Shown here piece by piece: positions 1,147 to 9,448 of a stretch of DNA of 14,885 nt. The notes under the pieces were generated by a model. That model had not been told where the DNA came from, did no database searches, and saw nothing but the letters and a program-made list of their open reading frames with translations. A program made the position numbers and the translations under genes. The stretch is from a bacterium (lineage in GTDB: Bacteria; Thermosulfidibacterota; Thermosulfidibacteria; Thermosulfidibacterales; JALWSI01), in the NCBI GenBank assembly GCA_027080315.1, contig JALWSI010000179.1, positions 1 to 14,885 on the forward strand, written 5' to 3'. Position 1 is the stretch's first letter; every line of letters begins with the position of its first letter.

Positions 1147-1446
1147 ATGGAGATAGGCATTGAGCAGGCGGTGGAGGTGCTAAATGCCTTGGCCAGTGAG
1201 GTGAGGTTGGCCATTGTACACATGCTGGTGGAGTGTAATGGCCTTTACTGTTCGGATATTGTCAGCAGACTCAACCTGAGTCAACCTGCTATATCCCATC
1301 ACCTGAAAGAGCTCAGGCGTTCAAAGGTGATTGTGTATCGCAAAGAAGGATCCTTGGTCTTTTATGAGGTGAATAGAGAGTATCTCTTAAAAGTGCTTCA
1401 GTATCTATCAGATCTCATCTCTTGCGAGAAGGAAGCTGTAGCGTAA
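1147..1446 (+). CDS. ArsR/SmtB-family winged-helix transcriptional regulator
   Basis: Small (99 aa) DNA-binding repressor-type protein with one winged helix-turn-helix. Residues 10-30 form the first helices (LNALASEVRLAIVHML). The recognition helix is SQPAISHHLKELR (45-57), followed by the beta-wing (VIVYRKEGSLVFYEV, 61-75). The ATG is preceded by a purine-rich AAAGGGGG with suitable spacing. ArsR proteins normally repress as dimers and are released by metal, redox change or a small ligand. The classic ELCVCDL metal motif is represented here only by GLYCSDI, with C30, C35 and C93 the only cysteines, so a standard arsenic site is not supported. It sits directly upstream of the acyl-CoA dehydrogenase operon on the same strand, making it the likely local regulator (inference). 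The inducer is unknown. Confidence 0.85.
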   Translation: MEIGIEQAVEVLNALASEVRLAIVHMLVECNGLYCSDIVSRLNLSQPAISHHLKELRRSKVIVYRKEGSLVFYEVNREYLLKVLQYLSDLISCEKEAVA

Positions 1447-1600: not shown

Positions 1601-2749
1601 ATGGATTTTCAGCTTAGTGAGCAGCATGAGATGCTGAGGAAGGCCATCAGGGAGTTTGCTGAGAAAGAGATAGCTCCTTTGGTGGAGAAGATGGAGGAGA
1701 CAGGCGAGTTTCCTTTGGAGATTCGTCAGAAGATGGGAGCAGTTGGCCTTTGTGGTCTGGTTACGTCCCCAGAGTACGGCGGGAATGGAATGGGTTTTCT
1801 CGCAAGGGCCATAGGAATTGAGGAAGTTTCCAGGGTTTGTGCAGGTTTGGGTATTGCTCTTCAGGTGCACCATATGTGTTGCTGGCCCTTGGAGACCTGG
1901 GGAACCGAAGAGCAGAAGAAGAAGTATCTGCCCAGGTTAGCCTCTGGTGAGACCTTTGGAGTCTGCTCCATAACCGAGCCCAGCGGCGGTTCTGATCCTA
2001 TGGGTATGCAGACCGAGGCAAGGCTTGAGGGAGACTACTGGATAGTTAATGGCCGTAAGTGCTTTGCCACAAACTCTCATGTGTCTGACATAATGATCAT
2101 TGTGGCCAAGACTGGAACCGACCCCAAAGGCAGACCAGCTTTCTCTGCTTTTATCGTTGAGCCCGACTTTGAAGGATTTTCCCTTGGTCGTGAAGAGAAG
2201 AAGATGGGCTTCAAAGGCGCTTCCAGTGGAGAGCTGGTCTTCAACGACTGCAAGGTTCCAAAAGAGAATCTTCTGGGTAAAGAGGGAGAGGGCCTCAAGA
2301 TAGCCCTTGCCACCGTTAATCGGGTTGGAAGGCCGGGAATGGCCAGCATAGGTGTTGGTATATGTTATGCCTCTTTGGAGGAAGCCTCCAAGTTTGCCAA
2401 GGAGAGGGTGCTTGGTGGAAAACCCATTGCCAACCTCCAGGCCATCCAGTTCATGTTGGCAGATATGTTCGCTCTTGCTGAGGCGGCAAGGATTCTCAAC
2501 TACAGGGCCAACTGGATGATGGATCAGGGTATGAACTGCGATACAGAGATGACCCTTGCCAAGTACGTGGCTACTGAGAACGCCTTCCAGTGTGCAAGGT
2601 TGGCCTGTGAGATCCATGGGGGATACTCCTGCATCAGCGAGTACGCTGTGCAGAGGTTCCTGAGAGACGCTTGGGTGGCCATACCCTCTGGAGGCACCTC
2701 TCAGATTGCGAAGATCGTCCTTGGCAGACACGTTACCAAAAACTTCTAA
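1601..2749 (+). CDS. Acyl-CoA dehydrogenase-family flavoprotein lacking the usual catalytic glutamate
   Basis: Full-length (382 aa) member of the FAD-dependent acyl-CoA dehydrogenase family, which oxidises acyl-CoA thioesters at C2-C3 and passes electrons to ETF. Family landmarks: N-terminal helical domain (MDFQLSEQHEMLRKAIREFA); FAD/substrate-binding CSITEPSGGSD (122-132); NGRKCFATNS (150-159); KERVLGGKPIANLQ (267-280); EIHGGYSCISEYAVQR (337-352) and RDAWVAIPSGGTSQIAK (355-371). In typical members the last block reads Y-E-G-T-S-E; here the Glu position is Gly364. The alternative base used by isovaleryl-CoA and long-chain enzymes (an E-R-L-type motif in the mid-helix) aligns with G243-R244, also without Glu. 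The reaction may therefore not be an ordinary dehydrogenation. It is followed after 24 bases by etfB. The ATG has a strong GGGAGGAGA binding site. Family call is firm; substrate is unknown. Confidence 0.92.
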   Translation: MDFQLSEQHEMLRKAIREFAEKEIAPLVEKMEETGEFPLEIRQKMGAVGLCGLVTSPEYGGNGMGFLARAIGIEEVSRVCAGLGIALQVHHMCCWPLETWGTEEQKKKYLPRLASGETFGVCSITEPSGGSDPMGMQTEARLEGDYWIVNGRKCFATNSHVSDIMIIVAKTGTDPKGRPAFSAFIVEPDFEGFSLGREEKKMGFKGASSGELVFNDCKVPKENLLGKEGEGLKIALATVNRVGRPGMASIGVGICYASLEEASKFAKERVLGGKPIANLQAIQFMLADMFALAEAARILNYRANWMMDQGMNCDTEMTLAKYVATENAFQCARLACEIHGGYSCISEYAVQRFLRDAWVAIPSGGTSQIAKIVLGRHVTKNF

Positions 2750-2773: not shown

Positions 2774-3571
2774 ATGCCTCAAGCTGTTGTTTGTGTGAAG
2801 CCGATCCCAGATCCCAAGGAGTGGGATCGGCTCTCCTTGGATCCTGAGACGGGGGTGTTGAAGAGAGCTGGTATCTCTACTGTAATCAACCCCCTTGATA
2901 AGAACGCTTTAGAAGCGGCGCTGCAGCTGAAAGACAGGTTTGGATGGACAGTGACCGTTGTTAGCATGGCACCTCCTGATACTCAGAAGACCCTCAGAGA
3001 GGCCCTGGCCATGGGAGCCGATAAGGTTCTCATGGCCAGCGACAGGGCCCTGGGAGGAGCCGCCACCCTTGCCACTGCCTACACCTTGGCTGCTCTGGTG
3101 AGGAAGGCCGGCGATGCGGATATGGTCTTTTGCGGAAACATGAGCTTGGATGGAAGCACCAACCAGGTGGTTCCCCAGCTGGCCGAGTTCTTGGGGCTGC
3201 CCCACGCCTCTCATGTGGTTGGGGTGGAGACAGAGGACGGAAGCACCTTTCGGGTTACCGTTGACCTGAAGGACGCCTTACTCACCTTGCAGCACAGTGG
3301 CCCTATGGTTTTGGGTTTGACCAAAGAGGCCAATGATCCTCGTTTGGTGTCGGTTATGGGGATCATCTCTGCTCAGTCAAAGCCTCTTGAGGTCTTTTCT
3401 GCCCAGGACCTGGATCTTGATCCTGAAAAGATTGGCCAGAAGGGCTCTCCAACTATAGTGAGTGGTCTTTTCATGCCTGAGATAAAACGCAGAAGAGAGA
3501 TTCTCTCAGGGGAACCGGAAGAGGTTGTTGACCGATTGATTGACGGATTGAGAGAGATGGGGGTGCTGTGA
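2774..3571 (+). CDS. etfB: Electron transfer flavoprotein, beta subunit
   Basis: Beta subunit (265 aa) of the ETF heterodimer, which carries electrons between acyl-CoA dehydrogenases and a respiratory or ferredoxin/NAD-linked partner. Visible features: N-terminal VCVKPIPDP; the INPLDKNALEAALQLKD block (38-54), equivalent to the MNPFDE-ALEEA motif; AMGADKVLMASD (79-90); and the nucleotide-binding loop GNMSLDGSTNQVVPQLAE (121-138), where many family members have Q-V-G-P but this one has Q-V-V-P. The C-terminal arm contains SVMGIISAQSKPLEV. The gene follows the acyl-CoA dehydrogenase by 24 bases and overlaps the start of etfA (TGATG), typical of co-translated ETF pairs. Whether the extra cofactor is AMP (canonical) or a second FAD (bifurcating) cannot be decided from reading alone. 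Confidence 0.93.
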   Translation: MPQAVVCVKPIPDPKEWDRLSLDPETGVLKRAGISTVINPLDKNALEAALQLKDRFGWTVTVVSMAPPDTQKTLREALAMGADKVLMASDRALGGAATLATAYTLAALVRKAGDADMVFCGNMSLDGSTNQVVPQLAEFLGLPHASHVVGVETEDGSTFRVTVDLKDALLTLQHSGPMVLGLTKEANDPRLVSVMGIISAQSKPLEVFSAQDLDLDPEKIGQKGSPTIVSGLFMPEIKRRREILSGEPEEVVDRLIDGLREMGVL

Positions 3572-4572
3572 TGGCCAACGTGAGTGACTACTCTGGATTT
3601 TGGGTGTTTGCCGAGCAGATAAACGGCAAGATTGCCGATGTTGGGAGAGAACTTCTGGGCAAGGCAAGGGAGCTTGCTGACTCCAAAGGGGTTGAGGCTG
3701 CTGCAGTTGTGGTGGGAGACTTAACCGAAGACGAGGTTAAAGAGCTCATCTCTTACGGAGCTGATAAGGTTTATCTTCTCTCACATCCCAACCTGAAGCT
3801 CTACTCTTCGTTGACATACACCAGGCTGCTTGAGGATCTGGTTAATAAAGAGAAACCAGAGGCCTTTCTCTTTGGAGCAGGCCCTTTGGGGGCTGATCTT
3901 GCTCCAAGGGTGGCTGCCCGGTTAAACACGGGCCTATCTGCCCACTGTGTTGATCTTAAGCTCAACGAAGAAGGTGGTCTTGATCAGGTTGTGCCGGGGT
4001 TCGGTGGTTCCCTAATGGCAACAATAGTCTGTCCGAACCACAGGCCTCAGATGGCCACAGTAATGCCTGGCGCCATGAAGATGCCTGAACCCAAAGAGAG
4101 GGAGGGAGAGGTTGTCAGGGTTGACGTGGGTGAGGTTCCTTCTCCATCTCCTGAGATCGTTGAGTTTAAGCCCAAAGAGCGTTCAGCAGTGGCCTTGGAT
4201 GGTGCAGATGTGGTTATCGCCGGCGGCTGGGGCATAGGCAGCGAGGAAAACTGGAAGCTGCTTGAGGAACTTGCTGAGGTTTTAGGTGGTGCCGTTGGTG
4301 CAACCAGACCTGCCATAGACGAAGGCTGGGCTCCAGAGGATGTGATGATTGGTCAGAGCGGTAAGACCGTGCATCCCAAGCTCTACATCGGCGCTGGTAT
4401 CTCAGGAGTGATGCATCACGTGGTAGGAATTCAGGATTCTGAGGTTATTGTGGCCATAAACAAGGATCCCAAGGCCCAGATATTTGAGGTGTGTGACTTT
4501 GGAATAGTGGGTGATGCAACCAAGGTTTTGCCGGTTCTCATATCAAAATTGAAAGAGAAGCTTGGGGAGTGA
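3571..4572 (+). CDS. etfA: Electron transfer flavoprotein, alpha subunit
   Basis: Alpha subunit (333 aa) that holds the FAD of ETF. The N-terminal domain begins FWVFAEQINGKIADVGREL; the linker carries PQMATVMPGAMKMPE (159-173). The FAD domain shows GADVVIAGGWGIGS (211-224), ATRPAIDEGW (244-253) with the conserved Arg246, GQSGKTVHPKLYIGAGISG (261-279) and the terminal VAINKDP...GIVGD block (294-315). After GISG, the usual Q-H pair reads H282-H283. I chose the ATG at 3571, which overlaps the etfB stop as TGATG; a GTG at 3568 in the same frame is possible. No separate membrane ETF:quinone oxidoreductase or ferredoxin gene is in the window, so the electron acceptor is not visible. Confidence 0.94.
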   Translation: MANVSDYSGFWVFAEQINGKIADVGRELLGKARELADSKGVEAAAVVVGDLTEDEVKELISYGADKVYLLSHPNLKLYSSLTYTRLLEDLVNKEKPEAFLFGAGPLGADLAPRVAARLNTGLSAHCVDLKLNEEGGLDQVVPGFGGSLMATIVCPNHRPQMATVMPGAMKMPEPKEREGEVVRVDVGEVPSPSPEIVEFKPKERSAVALDGADVVIAGGWGIGSEENWKLLEELAEVLGGAVGATRPAIDEGWAPEDVMIGQSGKTVHPKLYIGAGISGVMHHVVGIQDSEVIVAINKDPKAQIFEVCDFGIVGDATKVLPVLISKLKEKLGE

Positions 4573-4610: not shown

Positions 4611-5036
4611 ATGGCTGATTTCCCTAAGAAAGTTCTCGTTTGTACTGATCTGACTCCTGAATCTGAGGGTACCGTTGCATACGCATCGGACTTTGTGGAG
4701 AAGATAGGGGGAGAGATGCTTTTGCTCTACGTGGTTCCCGAGTTCTTCACAGAGGCGGATCTTATGGAGCTCTCTATTCCTGGGGGGAAGAAGGAAGTGT
4801 TTGTTCGTCTGAAGGCGAAGGCCGAGAAGGATATGGCCAGTTTCTCATCTAAGTATTGCAAAGGTTCAGCTTGTGACGCATTGGTGGTCTCAGGGGTTCC
4901 TCCAGTGGAGATTTCCAGAGTGGCTGAGGAAAAAGCGGTGGATCTTATTGTTATGGGATGCCACACAAGAACTGGGTTGGGATTGGTTGAGAGAACCATT
5001 GCTCGTGCGAGCTGTCCTGTATTGGTGGTTAAATAG
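4611..5036 (+). CDS. UspA-like universal stress protein with shortened nucleotide loop
   Basis: Cytoplasmic 141-aa protein of the universal stress protein family (Rossmann-like alpha/beta). Landmarks: KVLVCTDLTPESEGTVAYA (7-25) with the conserved Asp13; a central helix rich in Lys/Glu; VDLIVMGCHTRTGLG (110-124); and the terminal ASCPVLVV strand (133-140). In ATP-binding members RTGL is followed by a Gly-Ser loop (G-x2-G-x9-G-S/T) before the final helix; here about six residues are missing and RTGLGLVERTIARAS runs straight on, so nucleotide binding is doubtful. A very strong AAAGGGGGTGA binding site precedes the ATG. The 38-base gap after etfA contains TATAAA (4586-4591) but no good -35. Its position between etfA and the permease suggests a regulatory or chaperone role for this module (inference). 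Confidence 0.88.
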   Translation: MADFPKKVLVCTDLTPESEGTVAYASDFVEKIGGEMLLLYVVPEFFTEADLMELSIPGGKKEVFVRLKAKAEKDMASFSSKYCKGSACDALVVSGVPPVEISRVAEEKAVDLIVMGCHTRTGLGLVERTIARASCPVLVVK

Positions 5037-5075: not shown

Positions 5076-6470
5076 ATGAAATTCTATCTCATGAAGGATC
5101 GCCCCTACGGTGAGGAGCAACCCTATTGGGGAGGTCCTCTCAAACTCAGATTGCCATTTATCCACTATCCGATAGAATGGGCAGATTTTATTCAGGGTGC
5201 GATTCTTGCAGTGGTGCCCATGGGCATCATCGCGGCTATGACGAAGTATTTGGGGATTCCCTTTGAGATAGCTATCACCATGGTGATCATAAACAACTTC
5301 TTCTACCTCATTCACACAACCTTTGGAGATCCCACAGTAGCAGGGTGGATCACTGCGGGCATTCCGCTTTATATAGGTTGGCTTTCAAACTATCCTCTTG
5401 GGCCAGAGAGGCTGAAAGCCCTTATTGGATTTCAGTTGGTGGTTGGTGCTATATTCTTGATTCTTGGTGTCACCGGCCTTGCAAGAAGAGTGGTGAGCAT
5501 CGTACCTGCGTCCATCAAATCTGGAATCCTTTTGGGCGCTGGTTTGGCCTCCATAATAAGGGTGTTCAAACCGGGAAGTTTTTTCCAGCAGATGCCTTAC
5601 ACCTTAACCATCGCTACTGTTTTCTCTTTCTTTATGCTTTTCTCCAAAAGGGCGTTAGCTCTTAGACAGAAGTATGGGATCTTCAGATGGATAGCTCAAT
5701 ATGGGATCGCTCCAGCCTTTTTGGTTGGTTACGGAGTGGGGGTTATTCTGAAAGAGGTCAAGCCCCCTACCATGAAGTATGGCCTCGTGCATTGGGATAT
5801 TGCGGGTATGATGACCAAAGTGTCTGCCTTAGGGGTTGGGTGGCCTACAGCAAAAATGATGGTTGATGCTATACCCTTAGCGATAATGGCGTATATTCTG
5901 GCATTTGGGGATATCCTTATCCTTGAGTCTCTAATTGAAGTTTGCAACAGGGAAAGACCGGATGAGAAGATCGTGTTTCAGGCCAATCGTACTCATATTA
6001 TCACCGCCATTAGGAACATAATAGAGGCTATATTTTTGCCGTTCATCTCTTTAGCTGGTCCCCAGTGGACAGGAGGTCAGGCTTTAGTTGTTAATAGGTA
6101 CATTAACAGTACTCCAGAAGAAGAGCCCACCTATTGGGGAGGAGCTACCAGCCTCTTTTGGGGTATGAGTATAGCTCTTTGCTTGGCTGTGATAGTCTCT
6201 TTTTGCAAACCTGCTTTAAAGGTTGGGTTTGCTCTTACGCTAATGATTCAGGGATGGCTTTGCTGCTATTTGGCGATGGAGATGCTTCATGACAACGTGC
6301 AGCGCGGTATCTCAGGAGTAATGGGCTCGATTATCGCTGCTAAACCCGGTTCAGCATTGGGCTTAGGTGCGGGGATCGTGATGTACGTTCTAATTGAGTA
6401 TATTAAGAACGGTGGGTTAAACAACGGGTCAAAGGAGGTTACGGGGTCGTCTGAAGAGAGTAAGCAATGA
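5076..6470 (+). CDS. Polytopic inner-membrane permease, substrate unknown (NCS2/SulP-like features)
   Basis: A 464-aa hydrophobic protein with about 12 predicted membrane segments, roughly at residues 38-57, 61-82, 87-105, 113-135, 147-163, 172-190, 205-225, 262-290, 307-327, 357-377, 380-402 and 425-443, and a hydrophilic C-terminal tail. VPASIKSGILLGAGLASI (143-160) resembles the pore-region segment of nucleobase/ascorbate (NCS2) permeases, and AFGDILILESL (276-286) fits a functional half-helix region; the match is by eye and weak. A short motif appears twice: EEQPYWGG (13-20) and EEEPTYWGG (348-356), ahead of the first and tenth membrane segments. The AGAGGAGG binding site is good, and the gene follows the Usp gene by 39 bases. 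Being co-directional with a CoA ligase, it probably imports the ligase's acid substrate (inference). I do not recognise a characterised orthologue. Confidence 0.75.
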   Translation: MKFYLMKDRPYGEEQPYWGGPLKLRLPFIHYPIEWADFIQGAILAVVPMGIIAAMTKYLGIPFEIAITMVIINNFFYLIHTTFGDPTVAGWITAGIPLYIGWLSNYPLGPERLKALIGFQLVVGAIFLILGVTGLARRVVSIVPASIKSGILLGAGLASIIRVFKPGSFFQQMPYTLTIATVFSFFMLFSKRALALRQKYGIFRWIAQYGIAPAFLVGYGVGVILKEVKPPTMKYGLVHWDIAGMMTKVSALGVGWPTAKMMVDAIPLAIMAYILAFGDILILESLIEVCNRERPDEKIVFQANRTHIITAIRNIIEAIFLPFISLAGPQWTGGQALVVNRYINSTPEEEPTYWGGATSLFWGMSIALCLAVIVSFCKPALKVGFALTLMIQGWLCCYLAMEMLHDNVQRGISGVMGSIIAAKPGSALGLGAGIVMYVLIEYIKNGGLNNGSKEVTGSSEESKQ

Positions 6471-6479
6471 GGTGAACTC

Positions 6480-6557
6480 GGCGGGAGATAGAGAGGGAAA
6501 AATAAAAAGGTTAATACCCCCCTCACCTTTTAAATTCCCCTCTCTCTTTCTCCCGCC
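6480..6557 (+). other. Long imperfect RNA hairpin between permease and dehydratase-like gene
   Basis: The purine-rich left arm (6480-6497) pairs with the pyrimidine-rich right arm (6540-6557). There are nine perfect outer pairs (GGCGGGAGA with TCTCCCGCC), one T-T mismatch, then eight more pairs including one G-U. An inner AAAAGG/CCTTTT stem (6505-6510 with 6526-6531) could extend it, leaving a loop of about 15 bases. No proper U-run follows, so it is unlikely to be a classical intrinsic terminator. A processing, stability or attenuation element is more plausible (inference). Confidence 0.55.
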
Positions 6558-6589: not shown

Positions 6590-8056
6590 ATGGCACTGAG
6601 AACGCCAGAGGAGTACAGAGAGAGCCTCAGGAAGATGCGCCCAAACATCTACAAGTTTGGGGAGCTGATTGAGGATGTGACCACCCATCCTGCAACCAAA
6701 CGCACCATTAACGGCCACGCACAGCTCTTTGAAGCTTACGAGAATCCAGAGTATGCAGATATATTCACCACCACCTCTCATCTTACAGGCGAGAAGATCT
6801 CACGCTATCTCTCCATTGTGAGGTCCGCAGAAGATGCTGTTTACAACTGTAAGATGAAGAGAGCCGCTTACCATCTTACCGGAACCTGTACTGGAGGTAG
6901 GTGTGTGGGCTTCACCGCCCTCAACGCGATGTGGGCAACTACCTACGAGATAGACCAGGAGTTTGGCACCAACTACCATGAGCGCCTCAAGAACTGGTTG
7001 CTTGATGCCCAGGCTCGGGACATCACCTGTGCCGGTGCTCTTACCGATGCCAAGGGAGATAGAAGCCTGCCACCTCACATGCAGGCTGATCCGGATCTCA
7101 ACCTTAGGATAGTGGAGAGGAAAAGCGACGGCATAGTGGTCAGGGGTGCCAAGTGCATGATCTGTGGAGTGGCTGCCGCCAACGAGATCTTCGTTCTTCC
7201 TGGTGGAGCTTACAAGGAGCCTGATGAAGACTATGCAGTATCTTTTGTGGTTCCAAGGGACATTGAGGGACTCACTATTGTTGAGGTTCGCAGAGCCAGT
7301 GACAAGAGAGAGTACGAAGAGGGTTTTGATATTCCCAACGACATAGGTGGTATCACCCAGGCTTACCTCTTGTTTAATGACGTGTTTGTGCCTAACGAAC
7401 GTGTCTTCATGGCTGGAGAGTACAAGTATTGCCTTAAAGCCATTCAGTACTTCACCTCAACCTACAGGGCAGCCATAGGCGGTTGTGTGGCTGGCCAGGG
7501 AGATATCAAGGTAGGAGCTGCAATAGCCCTTGCCCGGTGTAACGGTCTCTCACAGAAGGTCTTCATGGACAAATTGATTCAGATGCAGATCAACAACGAG
7601 ACCACCTTTGGAATGGGAGTGGCAGCCTCAACCCTTGGACAGCCCCATCCCTCTGGGTGCTGGAACTGCGATCCCTTGCTGGCAAATGTGAACAAGGTGC
7701 ATGTGGCTGTCCGCCCAGAAGAGACCAACAGGCTTGCCAGGGACATTGGCGGCGGTATCGCCGAGACCGGTTGTCTTCCTTCGTATCAGGACATCATGGA
7801 TCCCAGGTACGGGGATCTCATTAAGAAGTACCTGGGTGCGGCCTTACCTTGGGAGCCAAGAGCCCGTGCGGCAAGGCTTATTGAGTGGCTAACCTTAGGC
7901 CCAGGTGTGCCAGGATGTATGCATGGAGGAGGCTCACCCGACGCAGCCAAGCTCATGGTGAGAGTGAGCACTCCTTGGGAGAAGTTCGTGGATCTCGCCA
8001 GAAGAATAGGCGGCATAAAGGACGAGATCCCCGAGCCAGCCAAGAAGAAGAAATAA
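6590..8056 (+). CDS. 4-hydroxybutyryl-CoA dehydratase / HpaB-family flavoprotein with altered active site
   Basis: A 488-aa member of the family joining 4-hydroxyphenylacetate 3-hydroxylase (HpaB) and 4-hydroxybutyryl-CoA dehydratase/vinylacetyl-CoA isomerase (AbfD). Length and blocks such as YEIDQEFGTNYHE (119-131), LTDAKGDRSLPP (151-162), LRIVERKSDGIVVRGAK (172-188), FNDVFVPNERVF (262-273) and MHGGGSP (444-450) are AbfD-like. In AbfD, C99, C103, H292 and C299 bind a [4Fe-4S] cluster. Here C100 and C105 are one residue further apart, the His position is Tyr292, and Cys299 remains. Other catalytic positions, aligned from memory, also differ: T190 to Cys192, E257 to Gln257, Y296 to Ile296, K300 to Val300, E455 to Gly442. 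Normal 4-hydroxybutyryl-CoA dehydratase activity is therefore unlikely. The AAGGAGGAGG binding site is excellent. The CoA ligase follows after 24 bases. Confidence 0.88.
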   Translation: MALRTPEEYRESLRKMRPNIYKFGELIEDVTTHPATKRTINGHAQLFEAYENPEYADIFTTTSHLTGEKISRYLSIVRSAEDAVYNCKMKRAAYHLTGTCTGGRCVGFTALNAMWATTYEIDQEFGTNYHERLKNWLLDAQARDITCAGALTDAKGDRSLPPHMQADPDLNLRIVERKSDGIVVRGAKCMICGVAAANEIFVLPGGAYKEPDEDYAVSFVVPRDIEGLTIVEVRRASDKREYEEGFDIPNDIGGITQAYLLFNDVFVPNERVFMAGEYKYCLKAIQYFTSTYRAAIGGCVAGQGDIKVGAAIALARCNGLSQKVFMDKLIQMQINNETTFGMGVAASTLGQPHPSGCWNCDPLLANVNKVHVAVRPEETNRLARDIGGGIAETGCLPSYQDIMDPRYGDLIKKYLGAALPWEPRARAARLIEWLTLGPGVPGCMHGGGSPDAAKLMVRVSTPWEKFVDLARRIGGIKDEIPEPAKKKK

Positions 8057-8080
8057 AACCACATTTTGGGAGGTAGCGGT

Positions 8081-9448
8081 ATGAAGGGTGGAATCTATGT
8101 TTATACCCGCCCGGATCCCAACGAGAAGTATTGGGATCCGGAGATTGAAACCATGGCTCGTGACAAGATGCGGGAGCTGCAGCTGTCAGAACTGAAAGAG
8201 ATGCTCCAGTTTTGCTACGACAACTCTCCTTACTACAAAAGCGCCTTTGACGAAGCTGGGGTTAAGCCTGACAAGCTGAAGAGCCTTGAGGACATCAAGC
8301 ACTTTCCATTCACAAACAAGAAGATTGAGAGAGATCGGCAAGAGGCGGTACCTGACCTGGGGGACATGATCTGCGTTCCCGAGAGCGAGATCGTTTACAT
8401 CTCTGCCTCCAGCGGATCCACAGGAGTCCCAACGGTCTCTCCTTTCACTGCCCAGGATTTTGATGAGTTCCAGGACTATCAGGCCCGTCTATTCTGGAGC
8501 ATCGGTATGCGTCCCAACGACAGATACGTGCATGCCTTGAACTTCACCCTCTTTGTTGGAGGTCCCGATGTGATTGGAGCCATGCGCACCGGTGCCATGG
8601 GCATCTGGGCAGGGACTGTTCCAACTGAAAGACTGCTCTTTATCTTACAGAACTTCAAGGCCACCATAACCTGGACCACACCCTCTTATGCCTGGTATCT
8701 TGCAGAGTCGGCCAAAAAGGAGGGAATTGATCCCGCAAAGGACCTGAATGTGCGCAAACTCATAGTGGCTGGTGAGCCTGGAGGGTCAATCCCCGCTACC
8801 AAGATGGCCCTTGAGGAACTCTGGAACGCCAAGGTGTACGACTTTTACGGGCTGTCTGACCTCTTTGGAGCCAATGCAGGTATGTGTGAGGAGCAGAACG
8901 GCTTGCATATGTACGAGGATCACCACCTGATTGAGGTGCTGGATCCTGACACCCTTGAGCCTGTTGGTGAGGGCGAGCGTGGAGAGCTTGTGTTGACCAC
9001 CTTACGCAAGAAGGCCAGGCCCATGATCCGCTTCCGCACAGGGGACATCGTGACGGTCACCTGGGAACCCTGTGCCTGCGGCAGGACCGCTCCGAGGATA
9101 ATGGGTATCCACGGGCGTCTTGACGACATGCTCATCATCACCGGTGTCAACGTCTTCCCCAGCGACATTGAGTATGTGGTGAGGAAGGACGAGCGCCTAA
9201 CCGGTGAGTACAGAATGATCGTCTATCGCGACGAGAACCACCTTGATCGTTTTGAGGTTGAGGTTGAGGCAGTGGATCCAGAGCTTGTGGGAAGCCAGGA
9301 GTTGGCAGAGGATATCCGTGCAAAGATCAAAGTGAGAGTGGGCGTCTCACCGAGAAAGGTACATGTGAAGGCCGATGGTGATCTGCCCAGAGCTACTCAC
9401 AAGGCTAAGAGAGTGATAGACAAGAGAGAGGGAGTCTGGCAAGAATAG
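8081..9448 (+). CDS. Phenylacetate-CoA ligase-like (PaaK-type) adenylate-forming enzyme
   Basis: A 455-aa AMP-forming acid-CoA ligase of the PaaK / coenzyme F390 synthetase-like branch, which adenylates a carboxylic acid and transfers it to CoA. Visible motifs: the N-terminal block LKEMLQFCYDNSPYYKSAFDEAG (38-60), typical of PaaK; the ATP loop SSGSTGVPT (110-118); YGLSD (256-260); RFRTGD (317-322); CACGRTAPRI (331-340), the PaaK Cys-Gly-Arg segment; and the C-terminal LPRATHKAKRV with Lys441/Lys443 in the catalytic-lysine region. All catalytic features look intact. The start is the ATG at 8081, six bases after GGGAGGT; an upstream TTG at 8066 lies in front of that site and is less likely. It is the last gene before a strong terminator. 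The acid substrate is unknown; aromatic acids are the commonest for the family. Confidence 0.92.
   Translation: MKGGIYVYTRPDPNEKYWDPEIETMARDKMRELQLSELKEMLQFCYDNSPYYKSAFDEAGVKPDKLKSLEDIKHFPFTNKKIERDRQEAVPDLGDMICVPESEIVYISASSGSTGVPTVSPFTAQDFDEFQDYQARLFWSIGMRPNDRYVHALNFTLFVGGPDVIGAMRTGAMGIWAGTVPTERLLFILQNFKATITWTTPSYAWYLAESAKKEGIDPAKDLNVRKLIVAGEPGGSIPATKMALEELWNAKVYDFYGLSDLFGANAGMCEEQNGLHMYEDHHLIEVLDPDTLEPVGEGERGELVLTTLRKKARPMIRFRTGDIVTVTWEPCACGRTAPRIMGIHGRLDDMLIITGVNVFPSDIEYVVRKDERLTGEYRMIVYRDENHLDRFEVEVEAVDPELVGSQELAEDIRAKIKVRVGVSPRKVHVKADGDLPRATHKAKRVIDKREGVWQE

Follow-up and report, generated by a model that had tools for sequence, protein, structure and literature searches.

The 4-hydroxybutyryl-CoA dehydratase AbfD (4HBD) is the textbook example of radical dehydration by a flavin together with a His-ligated [4Fe-4S] cluster, and the crotonyl-CoA that it yields is then reduced by an acyl-CoA dehydrogenase (ACAD)/Etf pair. 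According to general knowledge, and to an earlier reading of this locus made from the DNA letters alone (hereafter the sequence-only reading), its cluster ligands are C99, C103, H292 and C299, and its active site includes T190, E257, Y296, K300 and E455. The fold is shared with HpaB and the two-component flavin monooxygenases (2yyg, HadA, TftD). There is also a flavoenzyme of the ACAD superfamily, the gamma-butyrobetainyl-CoA:TMA lyase BbuA, that expels a C4 leaving group from an acyl-CoA; its reported identity to 4HBD is about 10% or less, and no iron-sulfur cluster is described for it (PMC8364193). Some ACADs are known to lack the catalytic Glu, namely the benzylmalonyl-CoA dehydrogenase IaaF (GGG), 3-sulfinopropionyl-CoA desulfinase (AGG) and carnitine-type enzymes (SGG), and for benzylmalonyl-CoA dehydrogenase the loss of CO2 has been proposed in place of proton removal (PMC8360864).

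The window analysed here, a stretch of 14,885 nucleotides, includes an AbfD-like gene (Table 1) that has an ATG start codon and a GGAGG-type ribosome-binding site upstream. Its product matches AbfD of Clostridium aminobutyricum (1u8v; phmmer E 2.6e-103) and the archaeal enzyme of Nitrosopumilus (6vjr; 1.2e-92), and HpaB-type monooxygenases are the next PDB matches, at 6e-27 and weaker. The AlphaFold2 model, which contains no bound cofactor, has a mean pLDDT of 93.4 and a pTM of 0.91. It superimposes on 1u8v with a TM-score of 0.94 at 41% identity (Z 51.2, rmsd 1.4, 473 residues aligned) and also matches the 6vjr fold. Thus, the resemblance to AbfD perceived in the sequence-only reading is genuine, and it extends over the whole length of the protein at 37-41% identity to the two enzymes, with the TD-x-KG-x-R motif and the Etf/ACAD context in common.

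As in the monooxygenases, the Pfam domains HpaB_N and HpaB are found, both above their gathering scores. However, identity to HpaB-type monooxygenases is only about 20-25%, 2yyg lacks the cluster cysteines, and these enzymes use O2 whereas the carriers of the AbfD-like gene look like anaerobes. No NCBIfam model reaches its cut-off for this protein, with HpaB-1 at 119 of 480 bits and HpaB-2 at 74 of 885 bits. The expectation that annotation pipelines would name it 4-hydroxybutyryl-CoA dehydratase or 4-hydroxyphenylacetate 3-hydroxylase therefore holds for Pfam but not for NCBIfam. The gene is intact and under purifying selection, with a dN/dS of about 0.05-0.06 against two orthologues from the same order, at a dS of 2-3 that is near saturation. 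A pseudogene or sequencing artefact is ruled out by the open frames, this low ratio and the presence of the same residues in other genomes.

A MAFFT alignment with 1u8v reproduces the AbfD numbering of all nine residues listed above. C99, C103, T190 and E257 correspond to C100, C105, C192 and Q257, and H292, Y296, C299 and K300 correspond to Y292, I296, C299 and V300. A one-residue insertion gives the first two cluster cysteines a C-x4-C spacing instead of the C-x3-C of AbfD. Both this spacing and the Tyr in place of the His ligand had been proposed before, and the computed alignment places no His at the ligand position; misalignment of His292 is ruled out by the invariant flanking residues F288, R293 and C299. 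The earlier assignments of Cys, Gln, Ile and Val to the positions of T190, E257, Y296 and K300 likewise stand, but that of Gly442 to Glu455 does not. AbfD residues 452-455 fall within a four-residue deletion followed directly by Cys443, so Glu455 has no counterpart and Gly442 is a choice of alignment. Nor is C299 the only residue unchanged, as had been claimed, since positions 100 and 105 have likewise remained cysteines. Three of the four 4HBD ligands are therefore present, and none of the five active-site residues. The pocket is probably less polar, given that I296, V300 and Q257 carry less charge than the AbfD residues that they replace.

Table 1. Features of the window (positions on the 14,885-nt stretch).
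Feature	Position	Strand	Evidence or remark
ArsR/SmtB-type regulator upstream of cluster	1147..1446	+	Kept in related genomes
Acyl-CoA dehydrogenase without catalytic Glu	1601..2749	+	SGG for YEG; Gly364 at codon 2690-2692
EtfB	2774..3571	+	Family profile match
EtfA	3568..4572	+	Family profile match
Universal stress protein domain gene inside operon (peripheral)	4611..5036	+	Profile match
Membrane transporter	5076..6470	+	Beside clade in 7 loci
AbfD/4HBD-like flavoprotein gene, Tyr292/C-x4-C clade	6590..8056	+	488 aa
C100-x4-C105 cluster cysteines (AbfD C99-x3-C103)	6887..6904	+	MAFFT; invariant in 49 clade members
Cys192 at AbfD Thr190 position	7163..7165	+	43/44 in core clade; Ala in Synergistota sub-clade
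Gln257 at AbfD Glu257 position	7358..7360	+	MAFFT and clade alignment
Tyr292 at AbfD His292 cluster-ligand position	7463..7465	+	MAFFT and clade alignment
Ile296, Cys299, Val300 (AbfD Tyr296, Cys299, Lys300)	7475..7489	+	MAFFT and clade alignment
Cys395, clade-specific 2-residue insertion; candidate replacement cluster ligand	7772..7774	+	Clade alignment
Cys443, after deletion removing AbfD Glu455	7916..7918	+	Invariant in core clade; Phe in Synergistota sub-clade
PaaK-type (phenylacetate-CoA ligase-like) acyl-CoA ligase	8066..9448	+	TTG start or ATG at 8081

There are 50 proteins, including that of the window, that form a single clade in a 78-row maximum-likelihood tree, with support of 100/100 and a stem of 1.09 changes per column. 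An alignment and tree of the family had been suggested as the means of seeing whether the Tyr292/C-x4-C form is a separate clade, and this is what they reveal. AbfD, 6vjr and a Metallosphaera 4HBD-like protein all fall outside it, although the fork at which the archaeal one joins has weak support, and the Tyr292 clade branches next to the known 4HBDs rather than among them. Members occur in 7 of 9 genomes of the small phylum to which the window belongs, as well as in Zixibacteria, a bin labelled Thermoplasmata, Synergistota, relatives of Bacillota and a Desulfobacterota-type phylum, which is that of G101. No paper on this clade turned up in the literature collection that was searched.

The conservation of residues across the clade is far beyond chance. 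C100, C105, C299, C395 and I296 are invariant in the 49 aligned members, position 292 is Tyr in 48 of them and His in one (L072), and position 300 is always Val or Met. C192 (with one exception), Q257 and C443 hold throughout the core clade and are lost in the Synergistota sub-clade, which makes it unlikely that Cys192 or Cys443 is a new clade-wide ligand. Cys395, which was overlooked in the sequence-only reading, lies within a two-residue insertion (ETGC-x-P) after the Gly388-Gly389 motif; every aligned clade member has this cysteine, and no AbfD-type row does. Apart from the three ligand cysteines, it is the only cysteine that is invariant across the whole clade. This makes it the obvious candidate for a replacement cluster ligand, a role that it may possibly fill. 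Judged by its residues, the Tyr292 clade is predicted to be functionally distinct from AbfD.

The genes of the window are arranged in the order ArsR-type regulator, ACAD, EtfB, EtfA, universal stress protein, transporter, AbfD-like gene and PaaK-type ligase. No Pfam or NCBIfam family matches the transporter above threshold; it shows weak similarity to MFS_MOT1, and a relative shows weak similarity to Xan_ur_permease. About 15 loci have ACAD-EtfB-EtfA alongside the AbfD-like gene, and in several the ligase or transporter is found again. Neighbours in other genomes include a butyryl-CoA:acetate-type CoA transferase (adjoining in three genomes) with aldehyde:ferredoxin oxidoreductase, a class III CoA transferase with a methylmalonyl-CoA decarboxylase-type subunit, and subunits of pyruvate/2-oxoacid:ferredoxin oxidoreductase. 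Most of these either form CoA thioesters of acids or act on them. Because the activating enzymes vary among genomes, the substrates may vary too.

Other associations are more local. A block of aldehyde:ferredoxin oxidoreductase, SelD/HypE-like and molybdopterin oxidoreductase genes recurs near the AbfD-like gene in L104, L105, L107, L111 and L112. L110, L117 and L118 carry TusA- and YedE-like, class V aminotransferase, O-acetylhomoserine sulfhydrylase, NlpA/MetQ-type transporter and LarE-like genes, several of these sulfur-related genes being named from sequence starts only. Some Glu-less ACAD-EtfBA-type clusters (L200, L203) are accompanied by creatinase/ectoine-hydrolase-like, M20 peptidase, TRAP transporter and succinate dehydrogenase-like genes, again as named from sequence starts only. 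Neither the sulfur-related neighbours nor the diverse genes around the partner ACAD (L184, L187, L200, L203) are consistent among genomes, and naming a substrate from them was rejected on this ground. The window has no Rfam match, either elsewhere or at positions 6480-6557 between the transporter and the AbfD-like gene, where there is an imperfect inverted repeat with 29-nt arms that are 76% complementary and an RNA fold z-score of -2.7.

The ACAD of the window is not an ordinary one, since the catalytic Glu of the YEG motif is absent. SGG is found in its place, and relatives have SGG, AGG or SAG-type sequences, as in the known Glu-less enzymes. On inspection, the aligned helix-G segment also has no Glu at what we take to be the position used by isovaleryl-CoA dehydrogenase. 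All ACADs that adjoin the AbfD-like gene (about 15 loci) lack the YEG Glu, and in a quick tree 30 Glu-less ACADs, both linked and unlinked, form one group. Unlike the known Glu-less ACADs, this group has its own EtfBA, which it keeps even where it is not next to the AbfD-like gene; the likeness to those enzymes concerns the partner and not the AbfD-like gene itself.

Across three sampled groups, the Glu-less ACAD co-occurs with the Tyr292 gene in 26 of 32 carriers, counted by E-value thresholds with the Glu-less motif itself read in only part of the ACAD sequences. It is present in 8/9 carriers versus 4/176 non-carriers in Synergistota (Fisher p 1.5e-10), in 5/5 versus 2/41 in the class of G099 (p 1.5e-5) and in 13/18 versus 8/377 in the phylum of G101 (p 2e-15), all three p values ignoring shared ancestry. 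The partnership is not universal, because six carriers (G098, G100, G103, G104, G360 and G431) have no strong Glu-less ACAD match at the thresholds used.

There are two further AbfD-like sub-clades of interest. One occurs in the same genomes (G000:C198:750-2183, which is L002, and L014, L015, L023-L026, L029, L111 and L112) and keeps all four ligands and Lys300, with Glu455 deleted and Thr at the Glu257 position. Its gene adjoins the Tyr292 gene only in L111 and L112 and has no operon link to it in the window's phylum, which rules out an obligate pairing of the two. The other sub-clade (L016, L019, L028, L030 and the second gene of L046, at 14759-16162), to which a Metallosphaera yellowstonensis gene belongs, retains His292, has lost all cluster cysteines and has Tyr at the C299 position.

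We tentatively favour, at somewhat less than even chance, the view that the window protein represents a distinct AbfD subfamily with FAD and a Cys-held Fe/S cluster, which would carry out an elimination or double-bond shift on an acyl-CoA ahead of the Glu-less ACAD-EtfBA. We infer the order of steps, the cofactors and the type of reaction as follows. An imported acid might be converted to its CoA thioester by the PaaK-type ligase in the window, and elsewhere by CoA transferases or 2-oxoacid:ferredoxin oxidoreductases. The AbfD-like enzyme would most likely bind FAD and an iron-sulfur cluster via Cys100, Cys105 and Cys299, with the fourth cluster site either occupied by Tyr292 or free for substrate. 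Lacking the acid/base residues Glu455, Tyr296 and Lys300, it would then perform, with help from the flavin, an elimination or the shift of a double bond. Perhaps the Glu-less ACAD, together with EtfBA, reduces or oxidises the product, much as butyryl-CoA dehydrogenase/Etf acts after AbfD in 4-hydroxybutyrate fermentation. An AbfD-like layout with changes in both catalytic centres suggests a comparable two-step process acting on a different acyl-CoA, and the shared fold suggests that the two lost residues, Glu455 of AbfD and the Glu of the ACAD, probably sit at equivalent sites. With most catalytic residues gone from the first protein and the catalytic Glu from the second, the pair probably performs an undescribed reaction.

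The sequence-only reading had anticipated a different reaction or a different cluster. The first is supported by the deep-stemmed conserved clade, its residue set and its Glu-less partner; as to the second, an ordinary all-cysteine [4Fe-4S] cluster is also possible, because three Cys ligands are kept and the invariant Cys395 could replace His292. One reading, which we consider somewhat unlikely, takes this further, with a mainly structural or electron-transfer cluster whose iron no longer binds substrate. It fits the presence of Cys395 in all 49 members and its absence from AbfD types, and also the retention of Cys395 in L072, where position 292 is His; against it, Cys395 lies in the loop after the Gly388-Gly389 motif, which none of the texts consulted puts at the cluster. 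Alternatively, the loss of most catalytic residues and the existence of a family sub-clade without any cluster cysteines might mean that the working cluster has been lost, leaving an acyl-CoA enzyme that works with flavin alone, or a protein that serves the Glu-less dehydrogenase as a structural or electron-transfer partner. This is improbable, since the three ligand cysteines, unlike those of the Cys-free sub-clade, have remained invariant over a long branch.

It is very improbable that the protein, for all its unusual residues, has remained a 4-hydroxybutyryl-CoA dehydratase or vinylacetyl-CoA isomerase. The 41% identity over a whole-length AbfD fold, the Etf/ACAD partner expected in 4-hydroxybutyrate fermentation and the CoA transferase adjoining in three genomes would all suit such an enzyme. 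However, replacement or deletion has removed His292, Glu257, Tyr296, Lys300 and Glu455 alike, and the Glu on which ordinary crotonyl-CoA reduction relies is missing from the partner. A bolder form of the distinct-subfamily reading, in which a [4Fe-4S]/FAD radical enzyme with a Tyr-ligated or open site and the Glu-less ACAD-EtfBA make up a widespread anaerobic pathway for an undescribed acyl-CoA elimination or isomerisation, is possible yet rather doubtful. A conserved clade that lacks the His ligand and the acid/base residues but keeps the cysteines makes the role of each part testable, and the co-occurring Glu-less dehydrogenase points toward an unassigned acyl-CoA pathway in anaerobes. Automatic annotation masks both enzymes behind familiar names.

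The same operon as in the window's phylum is also found on a contig labelled as a DPANN archaeon (L031), with identities of 77% for the AbfD-like protein, 75% for the ACAD and 73% for the ligase, and this contig is probably misbinned.
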